A program made the translations under genes and the position numbers. Source: a virus. Taken from it: a DNA stretch of 23,843 nucleotides. The notes below the pieces were generated by a model. The model had not been told where the DNA came from and made no database searches. It saw only the letters and a program-made list of their open reading frames with translations. Position 1 is the first letter of the stretch. Every line of letters begins with the position of its first letter. The stretch spans positions 1 to 23,843 of IMG/VR virus record IMGVR_UViG_3300018906_000010; one strand, 5' to 3'. Shown here piece after piece: positions 4,170 to 15,475 of this stretch.

Positions 4170-5762
4170 ATGAAGGCAAAAAAGTATTGGCGGAAGGACT
4201 GGAGACAAGAGAATCTAGATTTATATAACGGCGATCATTGGGATTTTTGGATTGGCCCCAAGGTTGACGAGAACGAACCTAACGCTCAAGAGTTTAATGC
4301 GGCAATCGAGCGGGTATTCCAAACAAACAACCTGATTCGCAACTGCATCGATCGCCATGTCCGTGCGCTGATTGGTCGCTTCCCTAACTGGTTTTTTAAG
4401 GACGAAAGCGGCGATCGGGTGGAGGCTGACCCTAAAGAAGGTGATGAAGCAACGCCAAACTCAGCGGCAACTGAAGCCGAGTTATTGATACAGAGGTGGA
4501 TCGATCGCATTCAGTCCTTGAGTCAAACTCAAGAAGCAGACATGGGCGATCCCTTTAAGAAAGCTGTCAAAGATTTAGCAGTGGCAGGTGAAGCATACCT
4601 GCGAATCTGGACTCCGAAGCGGTTTGAGAATGCCGATGATCCGATCCGGCGTGTTGCCATTCACTCGCCTGATATGGGGGCGATCGAGCTTATTTATGAT
4701 GCTGATAAGTTTCTAGAGAAAATTTACTACCGCTACCAGATAGACAACGTTGACTATATTGAATCTCAATTTATTGATGAGATAACAGGAGAGACTGTAA
4801 TCCAGACTCTAGACTCAAATGAGAAACAGCTTTTAGATGATGAAGAGATCCGCTTGAATCTGGGCGGGCGCTATACCGTTTATAAGATGTCAGCGCCATC
4901 GTTAATTACTCAATCAGCGAGAGACGCACAGAGCGCCGTTAACTTTGTCCTCACGATGCTCATGCGGAATCTGGAACAGGCAGGCTTTTTAGAGCGAATC
5001 ATCCTGGGCGCTCAACCACCGGGGCACTGGGATGAAGTGAATGGTGTTAAGACTTTCGTGCCTGACAATAACTTTAAGATCGGCGTGGGTCAGACCGCCT
5101 TTATCCAGGGCACGCCGAACTTTGATGCTGAAGATAATATAACGGGCTACTCTAACCCCTCGGTAAATTATCGAGAACCTGTGAACGTTGAAACGTTTGA
5201 GCGATCGCACGTTCTCGCCACCTCCATCATTTATCACCAGATGGGACAAGGGCATCTGTTAGCCACCGACCTCAACATGAGCGGTATTGCCAGAGTGCAA
5301 TCTAGACAGGACTTTGACACGACGCTAGAGGAGCATCGGAACACGGTACAGAGCGCGATCGGTGGAATTCTAGGCGCTGCCCTGATGCTGATGGCGGATA
5401 ACCCAGAAGCCTACGTAGGGTTAGACGTAGCGGTACAGTTGCGCCTGAGTACGTCTAGCCCACTGCCTGAGGAAAGGAGAGAGAACCGAGAAGATTATGC
5501 TGCTAAACTACGATCGCGCTCCACGGCAATGTCAGCAGCAGGCATAGAAGACTCGGATGCCGAAATCGCACTTATCCGCGATGAGGCGATGGAGAATAAC
5601 GCACTGGCAACGGCTTCGACGCTGACATCATTAGGCTTACAGGATGGTGAAAGCGCGATCGCCATGCTCCAAAGTTTAGGTGTCGTACCACAAGGGACAA
5701 GAGCAACAGTCGATCCAAGCCAACCACTGAACCCTGACAATAATGGAAACACAAATAACTGA
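4170..5762 (+). CDS. Portal protein
   Basis: This 530-residue protein is in the position and of the size of a phage portal (450-550 residues): directly after the large terminase and before head genes. It forms the dodecameric ring through which DNA enters. The N-terminal part has the usual helical entry, with RVFQTNNLIRNCIDRHVRAL followed by an acidic loop. Around residue 140 is a GEAYLRIW strand common in portals. The centre has long helices (FVLTMLMRNLEQAGFLERI, a stem-like segment), and the C-terminal part has another long helix (ENREDYAAKLRSRSTAMSAAG). The last codons (LNPDNNGNTNN) overlap the next gene and are copied at the end of that gene. The assignment rests on these patterns and context. 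Confidence 0.8.
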   Translation: MKAKKYWRKDWRQENLDLYNGDHWDFWIGPKVDENEPNAQEFNAAIERVFQTNNLIRNCIDRHVRALIGRFPNWFFKDESGDRVEADPKEGDEATPNSAATEAELLIQRWIDRIQSLSQTQEADMGDPFKKAVKDLAVAGEAYLRIWTPKRFENADDPIRRVAIHSPDMGAIELIYDADKFLEKIYYRYQIDNVDYIESQFIDEITGETVIQTLDSNEKQLLDDEEIRLNLGGRYTVYKMSAPSLITQSARDAQSAVNFVLTMLMRNLEQAGFLERIILGAQPPGHWDEVNGVKTFVPDNNFKIGVGQTAFIQGTPNFDAEDNITGYSNPSVNYREPVNVETFERSHVLATSIIYHQMGQGHLLATDLNMSGIARVQSRQDFDTTLEEHRNTVQSAIGGILGAALMLMADNPEAYVGLDVAVQLRLSTSSPLPEERRENREDYAAKLRSRSTAMSAAGIEDSDAEIALIRDEAMENNALATASTLTSLGLQDGESAIAMLQSLGVVPQGTRATVDPSQPLNPDNNGNTNN

Positions 5763-5763
5763 C
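5727..5763 (+). repeat. Junction repeat J1 (portal end / next start)
   Basis: This sequence holds the portal's last codons (LNPDNNGNTNN, stop) and, in another frame, the ATG 5743 of the next gene (METQITDL). Its first 22 bases differ from J3 at three positions. The core, CCTGA-Y-AA-Y-AATGG, is shared with J2 and J3. Confidence 0.8.
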
Positions 5764-6072
5764 CTGACCGCAGATCCCGTTGATTTGGATTTTGTAAAGC
5801 TAATGTCTAGAGCGCTGTCAATCAAAGCAGATATTTCTGCTTTGATTGAGCCATTTGATTATTATTACGGTCATCTTTTTAGACCCTACACAGAAGTTCT
5901 GGAGCCAAATCTAAAAGAAGAAATAGAAAATTTAAGAGAAGCACTTTTTACGATCGAGAGAATTTACCATTTACTAGAAGCCCGTAAGCTCTTGCATGGC
6001 AGCGATGAGACGCAATCCGAACCCACTCTGAACCCTGATAACAATGGCACAGCAGCAACCGGAAACAACTAA
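5743..6072 (+). CDS. Accessory gene A, unknown function, with portal-like tail
   Basis: This 109-residue protein starts at ATG 5743 inside the portal gene (20-base overlap). It is mostly helical: SRALSIKADISALIEPF, a Tyr-rich turn (DYYYGHLFRPY), then a long charged helix (LKEEIENLREALFTIERIYHLLEARKL is its extent, residues about 58-84). The last 14 residues, LNPDNNGTAATGNN, repeat the portal's own end, while the body has no similarity to the portal that I can see. That tail marks the gene as an insert placed in the junction. I recognise no family. It may be a phage accessory (moron) gene or an auxiliary head factor. Confidence 0.65.
   Translation: METQITDLTADPVDLDFVKLMSRALSIKADISALIEPFDYYYGHLFRPYTEVLEPNLKEEIENLREALFTIERIYHLLEARKLLHGSDETQSEPTLNPDNNGTAATGNN
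6028..6072 (+). repeat. Junction repeat J2
   Basis: The first 20 bases, CTGAACCCTGATAACAATGG, match J3 with a single difference and J1 with two. The repeat contains the tail codons of gene A (LNPDNNGTAATGNN, stop) and the start of gene B at ATG 6044 (MAQQQPETTK), whose beginning resembles the start encoded at J4 (MAEQPEPQPTIK). Confidence 0.8.
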
Positions 6073-6274
6073 AGCTAAATGGATACCTGTAGAGGAGCAA
6101 AGCCCTGAACAGGGGCAAAGAGTTCTAATTGCATATCGCGATGGTGAAAAAGTGAAATGCGTCTCTGGCTATTTTGAACTGGGTTTTGCAAAATATCCCA
6201 ATGACTTTGTACCAGACGATCGCGACTGGGAGATTGACGCGATCGCATGGATGCCACTACCAGAGTATCCCTAA
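6044..6274 (+). CDS. DUF551-like small protein (accessory gene B)
   Basis: This 76-residue protein starts at ATG 6044, 29 bases inside the upstream gene. After a short Gln-rich start it has WIPVEEQSPEQGQRVLIAY, then a central strand region (CVSGYFELGF), and ends DAIAWMPLPEYP. This 'WI.v.e..P..g..Vl.......W..WmPLP..P' layout is the DUF551 domain, common as single-domain proteins in phages and prophages and without known function. The domain is complete. The stop overlaps a possible start (TAATG, 6272-6276). It is the second insert in the repeated-junction array, and its first codons copy those of gene D. Confidence 0.75.
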   Translation: MAQQQPETTKAKWIPVEEQSPEQGQRVLIAYRDGEKVKCVSGYFELGFAKYPNDFVPDDRDWEIDAIAWMPLPEYP

Positions 6275-6299
6275 TGCCAAACGAACCACAGCCAACAAA

Positions 6300-6336
6300 C
6301 TGGACCCTGATAACAATGGAACACAGATCACCTGAC
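6300..6336 (+). repeat. Junction repeat J3 with adjoining relic start (6274-6299)
   Basis: This is a third copy of the junction, with ATG 6316 in its core. In the frame of the portal tail it still reads LDPDNNGTQIT and a stop, though no gene now uses that frame. Just before it, 6283-6298 is identical over 16 bases to 6698-6713, in the start of gene D. This junction therefore holds remnants of both halves of the ancestral overlap. Confidence 0.75.
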
Positions 6337-6717
6337 GAAGTTATGGCTGAAAACTTAGCCTCTGATATTTTTGCTAGAGGTAATTACAAAGTAGATAAAG
6401 CGATCGAGAAACAAATTCATGATGCTGTCTTTGCTTTCAACAATCGTTATGGTAAATACCCTAGCTCACTACTTTTGGGTTGGGGTACTTACCTGGTTGT
6501 TTGCCTTAACGCCGCCGCTGATCGTGGTTGGTCAGTGCGTGACCTGCCAATGCAGATGACATCGTATGGAGGCATAGATCTTCTGATTGACCCTAGCGAA
6601 GAATTCAAGGTTGCTTGCTGTCTTCCAGAAACACCCTGGGCTTCTGCCGTGCAATATTCTTTTAATCATTTTGTGACGAACAATGGCGGAACAACCGGAA
6701 CCACAGCCAACAATTAA
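6316..6717 (+). CDS. Accessory gene C, unknown function
   Basis: This protein has 133 residues from ATG 6316; the frame is open from ATG 6274, which would add MPNEPQPTNWTLIT. I choose 6316 because it occupies the same place in J3 as the start of gene A in J1 (MEH against MET). The N-terminal half is helical (MAENLASDIFARGNYKVDKA), followed by a hydrophobic strand/helix around LLLGWGTYLVVCLNAAADRG and a C-terminal beta part (GGIDLLIDPSEEFKVACC). The protein ends TNNGGTTGTTANN, a diverged version of the portal tail. I recognise no family. The HIP1-type sites suggest long residence in cyanobacterial hosts. Confidence 0.65.
   Translation: MEHRSPDEVMAENLASDIFARGNYKVDKAIEKQIHDAVFAFNNRYGKYPSSLLLGWGTYLVVCLNAAADRGWSVRDLPMQMTSYGGIDLLIDPSEEFKVACCLPETPWASAVQYSFNHFVTNNGGTTGTTANN
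6675..6717 (+). repeat. Junction repeat J4
   Basis: The most diverged copy. It keeps AACAATGG with the start codon ATG 6683 and encodes the tail TNNGGTTGTTANN of gene C in one frame and the start MAEQPEPQPTIK of gene D in another. It carries the 16-base GAACCACAGCCAACAA shared with 6283-6298. Confidence 0.7.
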
Positions 6718-6862
6718 GCCAGTGGGTCAACCTATCTCACTCACCAAGTCGCAACCGACGAACGATCGCGGCGAAGTCATCCTGACTCAGGGCGATGTGA
6801 ACCGGGCGATCGCTGAAGGCGACAAAGAAATAGTGAAATACATTGATGCGGCGAATCGTTAA
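6683..6862 (+). CDS. Small protein D, probable original neighbour of the portal
   Basis: This 59-residue protein starts at ATG 6683, overlaps gene C by 35 bases, and ends just before the next gene (two-base gap). It is Gln/Pro-rich at the start (MAEQPEPQPTIKPVGQP), then continues with LTKSQPTNDRGEVILTQGDV and an amphipathic C-terminal helix (NRAIAEGDKEIVKYIDAANR). I recognise no family. Copies of its first codons are found at the start of gene B and, as a relic, at 6274-6298. The simplest reading is that this was the gene directly after the portal before the other genes were inserted. It may be an accessory head or packaging protein. Confidence 0.6.
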   Translation: MAEQPEPQPTIKPVGQPISLTKSQPTNDRGEVILTQGDVNRAIAEGDKEIVKYIDAANR

Positions 6863-6864
6863 CT

Positions 6865-7125
6865 ATGACTCAAGCTGAAAAATATATTCAAGAGAAGAAT
6901 ACTGAGAACAAAACCTTCGTGATCATTGAAGGCTGGGGCGAGTCTAGCTATCTTGCTAAAAGTAAGTACGGGCTGAGGTCAAACCCGTATAAAGCTGTAA
7001 ATCACTCGATCGCTCTTGAGAAGGCAATCATGGTCTGCCCTGACCATGATGAGGTAGAAACCATTCACTTCAATGGAGAGTGTATCTATGCCCGCACCGT
7101 ATGGCCTTTTAACTTGTTGCTATGA
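6865..7125 (+). CDS. Small protein E, unknown function
   Basis: This 86-residue protein starts at ATG 6865, and its stop overlaps the start of the minor head gene (ATGA at 7122-7125). The sequence is mixed alpha-beta: a charged N-terminal helix (MTQAEKYIQEKNTENKT), a strand (FVIIEGWG), a helix around KAVNHSIALEKAIMV, and a C-terminal strand part with HFNGECIYARTVWPF. There is no signal peptide or membrane span. I do not recognise the family. Unlike genes A-C it shows no copy of the junction repeat at either end. It may have arrived by a different route or be an older resident. Confidence 0.6.
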   Translation: MTQAEKYIQEKNTENKTFVIIEGWGESSYLAKSKYGLRSNPYKAVNHSIALEKAIMVCPDHDEVETIHFNGECIYARTVWPFNLLL

Positions 7126-7796
7126 CAGGACAACTCATTGGTGGCACTCGCACGACACTGGAATACGTCAAGACTCTAGGGCAATTCCGCAACGCTCAGA
7201 ATAAGCGGTTTGTCGATCGCGCCACCGTCCTGCAAGTCGTTGACACAGAGGCACAGCGCACAGCGCTCCAACTGCAAGGGCACACACGGTTGATGGCATC
7301 GGGCAAAATCAGCCTCTCTGAATGGCAAGAACGGATGGCAGCTAGCGTCAAGAGTAGCCACTTAAGGCAAGCCCTTATGGGCAGTGGTGGCAAGCTCCAG
7401 ATGACCCAGCAGCAGTATGGTTTTGTCGGTAGTAGGTTGGCGAAAGAGTATCAGGCGATCGACCAGTTTGCACAGGCTTTAGCCAGAGGAGAAGTTACCG
7501 AGAAGCAAGCTTTGGCGAGGGCAGCACAGTACGGGCGATCGACCGCGCTATCATTCCATCAAGCTGAGAAAGTGACACGGATTAGAGATGGCTTTGTGGG
7601 TAAGCGCAGTCTCGATCCACAGGCTAGGCACTGCGAGGAATGCCCCATCTACAGCACACAGGGTCAATTCGTACCTGCTGCTGAGATTGTACCAACTGGC
7701 ACCAACTGTAGCTGCTCAGGACGATGCCGTTGTCTTGTGGTCTGGAAGAAACCGCGATCGCTTAATATTGATAGCAGCAATCTTTTAGCAGGTTAG
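7122..7796 (+). CDS. Minor head / head morphogenesis protein
   Basis: This 224-residue protein lies in the slot usually filled by a minor head (SPP1 gp7 or Mu F-type) protein, between portal and scaffold. It is helical for most of its length, with many Arg/Gln residues. From residue 168 it has a cysteine-rich end: ARHCEECP, and later NCSCSGRCRC (Cys 171, 174, 196, 198, 202, 204), likely to bind zinc. Minor head proteins often end in a small Cys/His cluster of this sort ('P.G..C.C...CRC'). It is typically a low-copy factor binding the portal inside the capsid. The start at ATG 7122 is fixed by the four-base overlap with the previous stop. Family membership is inferred. Confidence 0.6.
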   Translation: MTGQLIGGTRTTLEYVKTLGQFRNAQNKRFVDRATVLQVVDTEAQRTALQLQGHTRLMASGKISLSEWQERMAASVKSSHLRQALMGSGGKLQMTQQQYGFVGSRLAKEYQAIDQFAQALARGEVTEKQALARAAQYGRSTALSFHQAEKVTRIRDGFVGKRSLDPQARHCEECPIYSTQGQFVPAAEIVPTGTNCSCSGRCRCLVVWKKPRSLNIDSSNLLAG

Positions 7797-7798
7797 CA

Positions 7799-8185
7799 AT
7801 GAACGACACCCCTGAGCCAAGCCTAGCTAGTGAAGTGTTAAGAGAGGAAGGTTTTGGGCTACCATCCAAGCCAGAGAAAGCACCAACTTTAACAAATGAA
7901 GATGCTAAGGTATGGCTCATTCAACATCTCGCCGATCGCTTCAGTTTGGATGGCGACACTGTCAAAGCGAAGATTAAAACATGGCAAGAAGAAAGAAACG
8001 CTGAAGCCAAAGCCCATCTTTTAGAGTACGGGAAAAGTATTCCTGGTGGCATTCCTGATTCTGTGACCCGTGAATTAGAAGCCATAAATCATGAAGATTC
8101 ATCGGCTTGGATAGTGAGTTTAGTCAGAACTGGTCAACGTGAATTTTACTTGGAAGGCGAAAGGTTATACGATCGCTGGATTTAA
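7799..8185 (+). CDS. Unknown protein between minor head and scaffold genes
   Basis: This 128-residue protein starts at ATG 7799, two bases after the previous stop. It opens with a Pro/Glu-rich segment (MNDTPEPSLASEVLREEGF), then has helices (DAKVWLIQHLADRF; GDTVKAKIKTWQEERNAEAKA) and a C-terminal part ending REFYLEGERLYDRWI. It is acidic, without membrane segments or cysteines. I do not recognise it. Its position inside the head operon suggests an assembly factor. An 80-base spacer follows before the scaffold gene, so it may end a transcription sub-unit. Confidence 0.6.
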   Translation: MNDTPEPSLASEVLREEGFGLPSKPEKAPTLTNEDAKVWLIQHLADRFSLDGDTVKAKIKTWQEERNAEAKAHLLEYGKSIPGGIPDSVTRELEAINHEDSSAWIVSLVRTGQREFYLEGERLYDRWI

Positions 8186-8265: not shown

Positions 8266-8970
8266 ATGGATCTTCAAGCCGCTCTTGCCGCGATTCAAAA
8301 CTGTGATGCTTTGCCTAACCGTGCCGATATTTATGCTGCTGTAAGTAGTGAAATTGGCAAACTGAAGCCGCTTGAAGAGGAGCGCACAGCCGTTCTAACT
8401 CATAAGGCTGAAATCTTAAACGAGAAAAAGAAGCTGCAACAAAAGTTTGAGCAACTTCAAAAGCTGCTTGAAGAAACAGTGTCAAACGTGGCAGAAGGCG
8501 AGACAGTTGAAGAGAAACTGAGCAAGATAAAAGATCTCACCACTAAGTTGAGTGAGGCAGAAGCAGCGCGTACTACCGCAGAAACAAAACTGGCTGAAAC
8601 TGAAGCCAAGATGAACGACTTTGAAAAAGGTCTAACTTATCAACGTGTTGCTGCCAAAGTTGGAACGAATGCAGATGCATTGGCAACTTTAATCAATCTA
8701 CCGAGCGATCGGTTCCTGATTGAAGACAATGATGTTTTTGTTCTTGATGAGGCGAAAACAAATAAAAAGCCTTTAAGAGAACACGCTCAAGGGCTAGGTA
8801 GTTGGGTCGAAAACGCTTTGTTCCCTGCGGCACCTACACCAACTGGCAACGATCAGCCTCCACGTAGAACACCGTCAGCGCCACCGACATCAAGTGAGAA
8901 ACCTACTGTTAACGCTAACACCATTTTGGCTAGCACCTTTACTGGCCCACCTAAAAAGAAAACAGCATAG
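8266..8970 (+). CDS. Scaffolding protein (putative)
   Basis: This 234-residue protein has a long coiled coil (about residues 30-125, with KLQQKFEQLQKLLEE and KLSEAEAARTTAETKLAETE), a short folded segment, and a disordered Pro/Thr-rich C-terminus ending GPPKKKTA. A coiled coil plus a basic C-terminal tail is the layout of many capsid scaffolds, whose tail binds the inner capsid surface. The gene lies two genes before the major capsid protein, the standard position. No maturation protease was seen in the window. Its ATG 8266 lacks a clear Shine-Dalgarno sequence. TTGACA at 8247-8252 resembles a -35 box, but no matching -10 is evident. Confidence 0.65.
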   Translation: MDLQAALAAIQNCDALPNRADIYAAVSSEIGKLKPLEEERTAVLTHKAEILNEKKKLQQKFEQLQKLLEETVSNVAEGETVEEKLSKIKDLTTKLSEAEAARTTAETKLAETEAKMNDFEKGLTYQRVAAKVGTNADALATLINLPSDRFLIEDNDVFVLDEAKTNKKPLREHAQGLGSWVENALFPAAPTPTGNDQPPRRTPSAPPTSSEKPTVNANTILASTFTGPPKKKTA

Positions 8971-8998
8971 TTGCGCTTTTCTAAACTTGGGTTACATT

Positions 8999-9014
8999 AG
9001 TCTCAGATGAGACT
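8999..9014. promoter_or_regulatory. Dyad symmetry in the scaffold-decoration gap
   Basis: AGTCTCA-GA-TGAGACT is a 7-base perfect dyad with a two-base centre, 29 bases after the scaffold stop and followed by the A/T-rich GTATTAAAAAAC. It has no T-run, so it is not a terminator on the plus strand. It could be an operator or a small mRNA hairpin. I found no convincing promoter boxes around it. Confidence 0.3.
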
Positions 9015-9073
9015 GTATTAAAAAACTTAAGGTTACTGTGTAGCCAAGCACTTTGCTCCGTGAGCGCCACCAG

Positions 9074-9126
9074 ACCCTTTGTGAGGGGAAGGATTCAACC
9101 CCTATCCCACACAAAGGGTTTCTTTT
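9074..9126 (+). terminator. Terminator-like hairpin ending at the decoration gene start
   Basis: ACCCTTTGTG (9074-9083) pairs perfectly with CACAAAGGGT (9110-9119), and inside it AGGGG (9084-9088) pairs with CCCCT (9099-9103). TTTCTTTT then runs to the ATG at 9127. This is the shape of a factor-independent terminator. The 3' arm also contains the only Shine-Dalgarno-like bases (AAGGG, 9114-9118) before ATG 9127, so the hairpin may instead, or also, control translation of the next gene. Confidence 0.6.
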
Positions 9127-14443: not shown

Positions 14444-15475
14444 GTGCCCTGGAATACTGAACTACTCGGAGCGACAGCAGAAGTAGCATCAGGCAACCTG
14501 ACGCTCACAGAACCCGCTGGTGTGCAGGTAGGCGATCTCCTGATTGCCTGCATCAGCTATCGCTCTAACGCAGCGTTCACAAGACCATCAGGCTGGAACG
14601 ACGCAACTAGCCAGAATACAGGCAACACAACAGCCAACAACACGACATCGATCGGCTCTGGCTTCATGGCGTACATCGTGCGTGGCACTAGCGCCCCAAA
14701 CCTGACATTCGCCAGAACGGGGGGCGATGTCGCGCTAGGTCGAATCATTTCTTATCGGGGCGGCGCTCCAGGTGTGTCGCTGACGGCTACTGGCAGCACG
14801 ACGATGGGTGCCACCGGAACAGCCATCAGTGTCGCTGGCGTTACGACCATCACCCCGCGTGATCTGATTGTGGTTGCTGCCTGTGGTGCCCGTGCCAACA
14901 CTTTCTCAGCGTTCGCTGCCACCAATCCCGCAACATCATCCGGTACGAACTCAGCCCAAACAGCCGATCCGCTTGAAGGTACATGGCAGGAGCGATCGGA
15001 TAACAGCACGACAACAGGAGCCGACTGTACGCTAGCGATCGCGGATGCCGTGCGCTCAACTGCTGGCGCGACAGGCAATATCACGGCAACCGCCTCTGCT
15101 TCAGCCCGTCACGTTGTCCTGATTGCTGCATTTCGCGAAGATATTCCGGTGGCGCTCACACCCACAGGTATCGCCACGGGTGCCCCTGTGGTGGGCAATC
15201 CTACGATCGCACTGCAATGGCGGCTCGTCCCCACAGGCATTACAGCTACGCCTGTCGTAGGCAATCCGAAACTTAGCTTAATTGCCCTCTTCGTTCCCAC
15301 GGGCATTACTGCCACTCCCGTTGTTGGCAGTCCTGCGCTTAGTTTAATCGCTCTCTTCACTCCCACGGGCATCACTGCTACACCTATCGTGGGGAGTCCA
15401 ACCGTTTCACAGCCTCTACCCCCGGCACAGCCAACAACAGATTATGTCATCACGCTACGGATCACGAAACTATGA
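14444..15475 (+). CDS. Structural protein with four C-terminal 22-residue repeats
   Basis: This 343-residue protein starts at GTG 14444, adjoining the previous TAA. Residues about 1-225 form a beta-sandwich-like domain seen in phage surface proteins: EPAGVQVGDLLIACISYRS, RPSGWNDAT, then a strand series with LTFARTGGDVALGRIISYRG and a closing ARHVVLIAAFRED. A repeat region follows at residues 240-328, with units such as PTGITATPVVGNPKLSLIAL, probably an extended stalk or linker. The end (DYVITLRITKL) is a short strand. It lies between other host-contact genes, so a role in adsorption or virion decoration is plausible. No catalytic motif is visible. The stop overlaps a 42-residue gene (ATGA). 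Confidence 0.65.
   Translation: MPWNTELLGATAEVASGNLTLTEPAGVQVGDLLIACISYRSNAAFTRPSGWNDATSQNTGNTTANNTTSIGSGFMAYIVRGTSAPNLTFARTGGDVALGRIISYRGGAPGVSLTATGSTTMGATGTAISVAGVTTITPRDLIVVAACGARANTFSAFAATNPATSSGTNSAQTADPLEGTWQERSDNSTTTGADCTLAIADAVRSTAGATGNITATASASARHVVLIAAFREDIPVALTPTGIATGAPVVGNPTIALQWRLVPTGITATPVVGNPKLSLIALFVPTGITATPVVGSPALSLIALFTPTGITATPIVGSPTVSQPLPPAQPTTDYVITLRITKL
15161..15427 (+). repeat. Tandem 66-base coding repeats (about four copies)
   Basis: Units start with CCCAC(A/G)GG(C/T)AT at 15161 (69 bases), 15230, 15296 and 15362 (66 bases each) and encode PTGI(A/T)-(G)A-P-V/I-VG-N/S-P followed by a hydrophobic strand (LSLIAL in copies 2 and 3). Copies 2 and 3 are nearly identical in protein but differ at many third positions, so the repeats have been kept under selection. 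Confidence 0.85.

Follow-up and report, generated by a model that had tools for sequence, protein, structure and literature searches.

Fossil gene borders between the portal and head genes of a cyanobacterial virus suggest stepwise gene gain by recombination

The entry of small accessory genes into the tight and essential operons of phages is usually inferred from gene content alone. The portal-to-head interval of a cyanobacterial virus, included in a stretch of 23,843 nucleotides that was analyzed as a whole (the window), raises the question of how a series of extra genes came to lie between overlapping structural genes and in which order they arrived. Fossil borders within the interval have living counterparts in sister loci, which makes the individual steps readable and testable; the scars give the probable order of gene gain, and sisters that still carry the original borders provide a check on it. 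The features of the interval are listed in table 1. Based on the scars, their living counterparts in the sister loci, a switch of the portal 3' end, the presence and absence of genes, and a second array in a more distant relative, the accessory array probably arose through a succession of out-of-register recombination events among related phages with different genes in the slot between the portal gene and gene D.

Table 1. Features of the portal-to-head interval (positions within the window)
Feature	Position	Strand	Remarks
Portal protein gene, conserved upstream anchor	4170..5762	+	Follows Mu-type terminase; weak PHROG 21 portal match
Portal 3' end, changes with the portal-proximal extra gene	5555..5762	+	Divergence jump, p<0.001 by permutation
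J1, living portal end overlapping the A start	5708..5762	+	
Extra gene A, 109 aa	5743..6072	+	L005 homologue A' (28% identity); not in L004
J2, fossil portal end, 88% identical to L004 living portal end	6015..6072	+	52/59
Extra gene B, 76 aa, DUF551	6044..6274	+	PF04448, E 1.2e-5, above cut-off
Fossil gene D start after B (MPNEPQPTN)	6274..6298	+	16-bp repeat with 6698-6713; matches L005 living B-D junction
J3, fossil portal end to old stop codon, fused to D-start fossil	6282..6335	+	
Extra gene C (ATG at 6316, 133 aa), in a frame open from 6247	6316..6717	+	Not in L005
J4, C/D overlap	6675..6717	+	Weak similarity
Gene D, for a small conserved protein; lies between the portal and head genes	6683..6862	+	HMM matches in relatives
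Extra gene E, second slot (D-head)	6865..7125	+	L004: unrelated gene; L005: related E plus further gene
Minor head protein gene, downstream anchor	7122..7796	+	PHROG 24776, E 2.7e-48

The portal-D-head block in other cyanobacterial phages

The window portal has homologues among the portals of cyanobacterial genomes and of viral contigs, and the relatives point to a cyanobacterium as the host. Gene D represents a real family, with HMM matches in L131, L132, L133, L134, L051, L054, L035, L168, L169, and L173. The first-pass annotation had proposed that the portal gene and D were once neighbors, which agrees with five loci in which the portal directly overlaps D (L131, L133, L134, L051, and L168) and with cyanophage S-CBS4, where a D-like segment forms the portal C-terminus (as it does in L055, L058, L130, and L135). 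The portal, D, and head genes are adjacent without any insert in L131, L133, L051, and L168, and the same arrangement with a more divergent D-like gene is found in L138 and cyanophage Cr-LKS4. One or both junctions carry inserts in L132, L134 (a D12-class adenine methyltransferase), L054, L141, L169, and L017. Overall, portal-D-head is a conserved block with none or differing genes at its two junctions, and the variable inserts indicate that both the portal-D and the D-head junction are hot spots for gene gain.

No portal relatives were found among 50,697 phage records, and a portal query against GTDB contigs returned no relative; an alignment of the terminase identified Tildeniella nuda only. 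Genes A, C, and E gave no convincing Pfam or PHROG family match and no match in the phage records, where B had a single match, and none of the slot genes matched a defense family in PADLOC. In distant relatives, a small conserved protein family (NFxIPGC...NPDAKVDFWIKV) is encoded next to the portal or the head gene, either replacing D or beside it (L134 6667-6873, L027 1962-2201, L028, and L037).

Junction repeats and their living counterparts

The junctions J1 (5727), J2 (6028), and J3 (6300) constitute one family of direct repeats in the window. J2 and J3 are identical at 19 out of 20 bases and J1 differs from J3 at 3 out of 22; the local-alignment scores, compared with dinucleotide shuffles, were 28 for J1-J3 (null maximum 19.5), 20.5 for J2-J3 (null maximum 20), and 18.5 for J1-J2 (p=0.001), a similarity far above chance expectation. 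The earlier description of four junctions as versions of one sequence thus stands for these three, whereas J4 is a weak match (p=0.0025 against J2 and p=0.03 against the portal end of the sister locus L004) that is possibly an older portal-end fossil. As had been described, each of the copies spans a gene border, with the upstream gene ending in one reading frame and the downstream gene starting in a different one; the overlaps measure 20 bp for portal/A, 29 bp for A/B, and 35 bp for C/D. The bodies of A, B, and C share no similarity, again in agreement with the earlier description, and the only resemblance of A to the portal lies in its last ~11 residues (LNPDNNG); the last ~17 residues of A derive from a portal tail. 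No further copy of the repeat core was detected in the rest of the window. A comparison of the window junctions with the portal overlap of L028 gave p~0.02-0.05 only and deep homology is therefore not claimed. A 66-bp tandem repeat of 2.6 copies is located at 15230-15399 within a tail-region protein (PTGITATPVVG... repeats).

The closest sister loci are located on an IMG/VR contig of 107,563 bp that contains two full head modules and one partial module (portal protein 86-100% versus the window). The gene order is portal-B-C-D-E'-head in L004, which lacks A, and portal-X-A'-B-D-E-F-head in L005, which lacks C. The alignments between the window and its sisters end exactly at the junctions, and the expectation that relatives would differ in gene number at precisely these positions was thereby borne out.

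Positions 7356-7376 of L005 align twice to the window, with the end of 6005-6298 and with the start of 6692-6861, which places C between two copies of one stretch. An exact 16-bp repeat (GAACCACAGCCAACAA), which the first-pass annotation had missed, is found at 6283-6298 and 6698-6713. The sequence that follows B (TAATGCCAAACGAACCACAGCCAACAA) is a gene D start (score 16.5, null maximum 14) with the register and length of the living B-D junction of L005 (ATGTCAACCGAACCACAACCAACAA); the window's own D has a longer start that begins ATGGCGGAACAACCGGAACC. Since the 16-bp repeat is shared with the start of D, J3 is a composite in which a copy of the D start is fused to a copy of the portal end. The portal-end part scored 27 (null maximum 17) and reaches 6335, the position of the portal stop codon. 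The transition between the two parts falls within AGCCAACxA, a stretch that the D start shares with the window's living portal end. A D-start fossil that runs into a second portal end suggests that J3 records the joining of a portal-B-D to a portal-C-D arrangement. Both arrangements would once have existed irrespective of whether the window gained C or L005 lost it, and L005 may have lost C through recombination between the 16-bp repeats. No phage with the portal directly before C was found, so the portal/C junction is known solely as a fossil.

J2 resembles the living portal end of L004, which lies directly before B, more closely than the portal end of the window itself (52/59, score 44.5 with a null maximum of 18, versus 35/54, 65%), and the A'/B junction of L005 matches the same L004 portal end at 50 out of 57 positions. 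A D start was not recognizable at the A/B joint, and a D-tail remnant in L005 was weak (p=0.025). Scars were observed in four close loci (the window, L004, L005, and L035), two of them on one contig, within a thinly sampled clade. A search for scars in L131, L132, L133, and L051 found none and gave a borderline result in L134; L132 and L134 are thus relatives with inserts but without clear scars.

These borders bear on the model of the first-pass annotation, in which foreign genes were inserted in place into the portal-D overlap, each insertion duplicating the overlap and leaving a repeat that serves as a landing site for further genes. Repeats do flank each gene and the 16-bp repeat around C resembles a target-site duplication, but J2 copies the portal end of another phage instead of the local one, J3 combines two different gene ends, and the portal 3' end has been replaced (see below), none of which fits a duplication of the local overlap. 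The exact 20-mer core, which had been suggested as a query for phage genomes, was found in IMG/VR only on the sister contig; the junctions have no special fold, there is no recombinase gene within the slot, and the joints in L035 use an unrelated sequence. In-place insertion is therefore considered unlikely, and a role of the repeat as a landing site is not borne out.

A number of further differences were observed in the sister modules. The 107-kb contig (G001) carries its related head modules at 1-13 kb, 71-98 kb, and 103-107.6 kb (L013, L014, and L015); two of them are in reverse orientation and one is forward, phage tail-like, methylase-like, and other genes lie between them, and they represent either neighboring prophages or a mis-assembly. 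The terminase large subunit of the L004 module (L018 8001-9460) and the beginning of the L005 head gene (8468-9094) contain frameshifts, which reflect either prophage decay or errors of assembly. In L005 (6843-7352), the loss of 1 nt at the junction (AACAAT-GCACAA) fuses A' and B into one 169-aa frame, and a gene overlap can thus turn two genes into one. The terminase of L005 (3400-5000) has no DNA similarity to the Mu-type terminase of the window, lies upstream of a near-identical portal body, and appears to be a clean module swap. In L004, a 259-aa ORF with a zinc-finger-like start and no Pfam match (8343-9122) is inserted after the head gene, is missing from the window, and looks like an insert of the homing-endonuclease type.

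Exchange of the portal 3' end and the order of gene gain

The portal genes of the three sisters are closely related over most of their length and then diverge abruptly. The divergence between the window and L005 is 7.6% up to ~5555 and 51% thereafter, and that between the window and L004 rises from 8.9% to 31% at ~5455; both jumps exceed all permutations (p<0.001). The last 200-300 bp of the portal gene switch together with the first extra gene, which differs in all three sisters (A in the window, B in L004, and X in L005). Such a combination is expected if the portal 3' end travels with the new gene, and is not expected under insertion or simple deletion, while fast evolution of portal C-termini might be an alternative cause.

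The switch also speaks to the possibility that a long ancestral array once held all of the genes and that the sisters lost A or C by recombination between repeats. The 16-bp repeats would indeed delete C and yield a B-D junction like that of L005. However, a deletion of A between J1 and J2 predicts a window-like portal end in L004, at odds with the divergence found over its last ~300 bp, X is an extra gene in L005, and the composite scars still require a prior joining event. We consider loss from such an array very unlikely.

Under successive recombination, the incoming segment would consist of a portal end, a new gene, and a D start. It would pair by portal homology on one side, and on the other side a few matching bases would join it to the resident portal end. 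Each event would seat the new gene, together with its own version of the portal end, beside the portal, and the previous portal end would remain as a scar before the older genes, in some cases together with an additional D start. The likely route would be homology-facilitated illegitimate recombination, with joints in the low-complexity tails of the overlapping genes, where a hybrid would still provide an upstream stop and the next start. This would make C the oldest gain, followed by B, with A as the newest. The gene set of L004 fits the state before A, and X of L005 adjoins a different portal end. Provided that the assembly of the 107-kb contig is correct, its three head modules show that suitable recombination partners can occur within a single DNA molecule.

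Translation signals at the junctions were screened as well. A and B start within the upstream gene and lack a Shine-Dalgarno motif; AGGAG or AGGAGG is present at MCP, 10955, 14069, and 14444. Translation is probably coupled across the overlaps without ribosome-binding sites, and such coupling would demand that a usable joint brings stop and start together. This suggests why overlaps of structural genes tolerate insertions, as a sloppy joint in low-complexity ends still gives a working stop and start. Two promoter-like sites were found in the region, equal to the shuffle mean and none of them at J1-J4, terminators showed no excess at the junctions, the junction folds were no better than those of shuffled sequences, and an Rfam search of the junctions gave no match. 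The position of the repeat at gene starts and the missing Shine-Dalgarno motifs of A and B could be explained by a functional translational or regulatory start element carried by each gene. Such an element is nevertheless highly improbable, because the similarity is not a compact motif but spans the portal coding tail to the stop codon, is missing from E, the head gene, and the genes of L035, occurs at no other place in the window, and comes without promoter, terminator, fold, or Rfam match.

A second array and comparison with known systems

A second array was identified in L035, whose portal is 45% identical to that of the window. A single gene separates the portal from D, and a long series of genes lies between D and the head gene, an array of the same topology at the other junction and with an unrelated joint sequence. 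A repeat search identified three copies of a 95-nt stretch. The first copy is D itself, and in the two internal copies a head-gene start (ATGACAGCGCAACTGATTGG, MTAQLIG) is fused across AGCGATCGC to a D tail; this recurring unit gave scores of 37.5 (null maximum 16) and 20 (null maximum 15). The D-tail copies were independently recovered by the D HMM, and a further (third) copy of the head start is located at 7859. One gene of the array encodes a DUF2513 protein in which the family match covers residues 2-99 of 124 and is followed by a D-tail-like extension. The same topology with a different sequence argues against a specific landing site. In L005, a remnant of the head-gene start lies between E and F; window positions 6907-7149 align to L005 7757-7999 without gap opening and enter the head gene by 28 nt.

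The closest known parallel is found in the T6SS immunity-gene arrays of Vibrio cholerae, in which a conserved upstream gene varies at its 3' end, new modules are added beside it, as proposed through homology at one flank and illegitimate joining at the opposite one, and older modules move downstream, in one instance carrying along the displaced gene's 3' end (PMC5361080; Kirchberger et al. 2017). In both systems, fragments of the anchor gene lie between modules (J2 and J3 as portal-end fossils here), the anchor exchanges its 3' end with the newest module, and joints have little homology (J3 within AGCCAACxA, L035 at AGCGATCGC). The differences are that the anchor here is a phage portal gene (D in L035), that whole small genes of mostly unknown function accrue, and that the scar is an overlapping stop and start with a copy of the downstream gene's start also left behind. 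Phage recombinases act on DNA with 22% divergence and leave joints in very short identical blocks (PMC2327257). The joints described here likewise fall in short blocks shared by diverged phages, as in the mosaicism of temperate phages by homeologous or illegitimate recombination (PMC2327257), but that work describes module replacement, whereas the present interval gains modules and retains the superseded border as a fossil.

Other repeat-associated systems differ more clearly. The start-associated sequences of cluster K mycobacteriophages, a 13-bp GGGATAGGAGCCC in part accompanied by 17-bp inverted repeats (ESAS), lie immediately upstream of gene starts (PMC3203893) and are similar in that a short repeat marks gene starts; the repeat of the window, however, consists of the upstream gene's coding tail, with neither dyad nor stable fold. 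In T4-type phages, promoter-stem-loop (PeSL) cassettes are a repeated intergenic sequence that has been tied to gene shuffling (Arbiol 2010 and Comeau 2014, cited in PMC4503421); compared with the cassettes as outlined in that source, the window junctions lack a promoter and a stem-loop. Unlike integron gene cassettes, the junctions have no attC-like fold and the sole recombinase observed is a serine recombinase 13 kb away. Unlike classical morons, the extra genes have no promoter or terminator of their own, and A and B overlap the upstream gene.

A tentative generalization is that overlapping low-complexity tails in phage head operons could act as general joints for a ratchet of gene gain, in which displaced recombination between related phages would add accessory genes at every conserved structural-gene overlap, each gain swaps the C-terminus of the essential upstream gene, a stack of fossils records the order, and the HIP1 octamer GCGATCGC can be the joint in cyanobacterial phages; we regard this as possible but doubtful. 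The L035 joints at 6799, 7476, and 7881 coincide with this octamer, which is frequent in cyanobacteria and may have provided recombination microhomology or may lie at the joints by coincidence.
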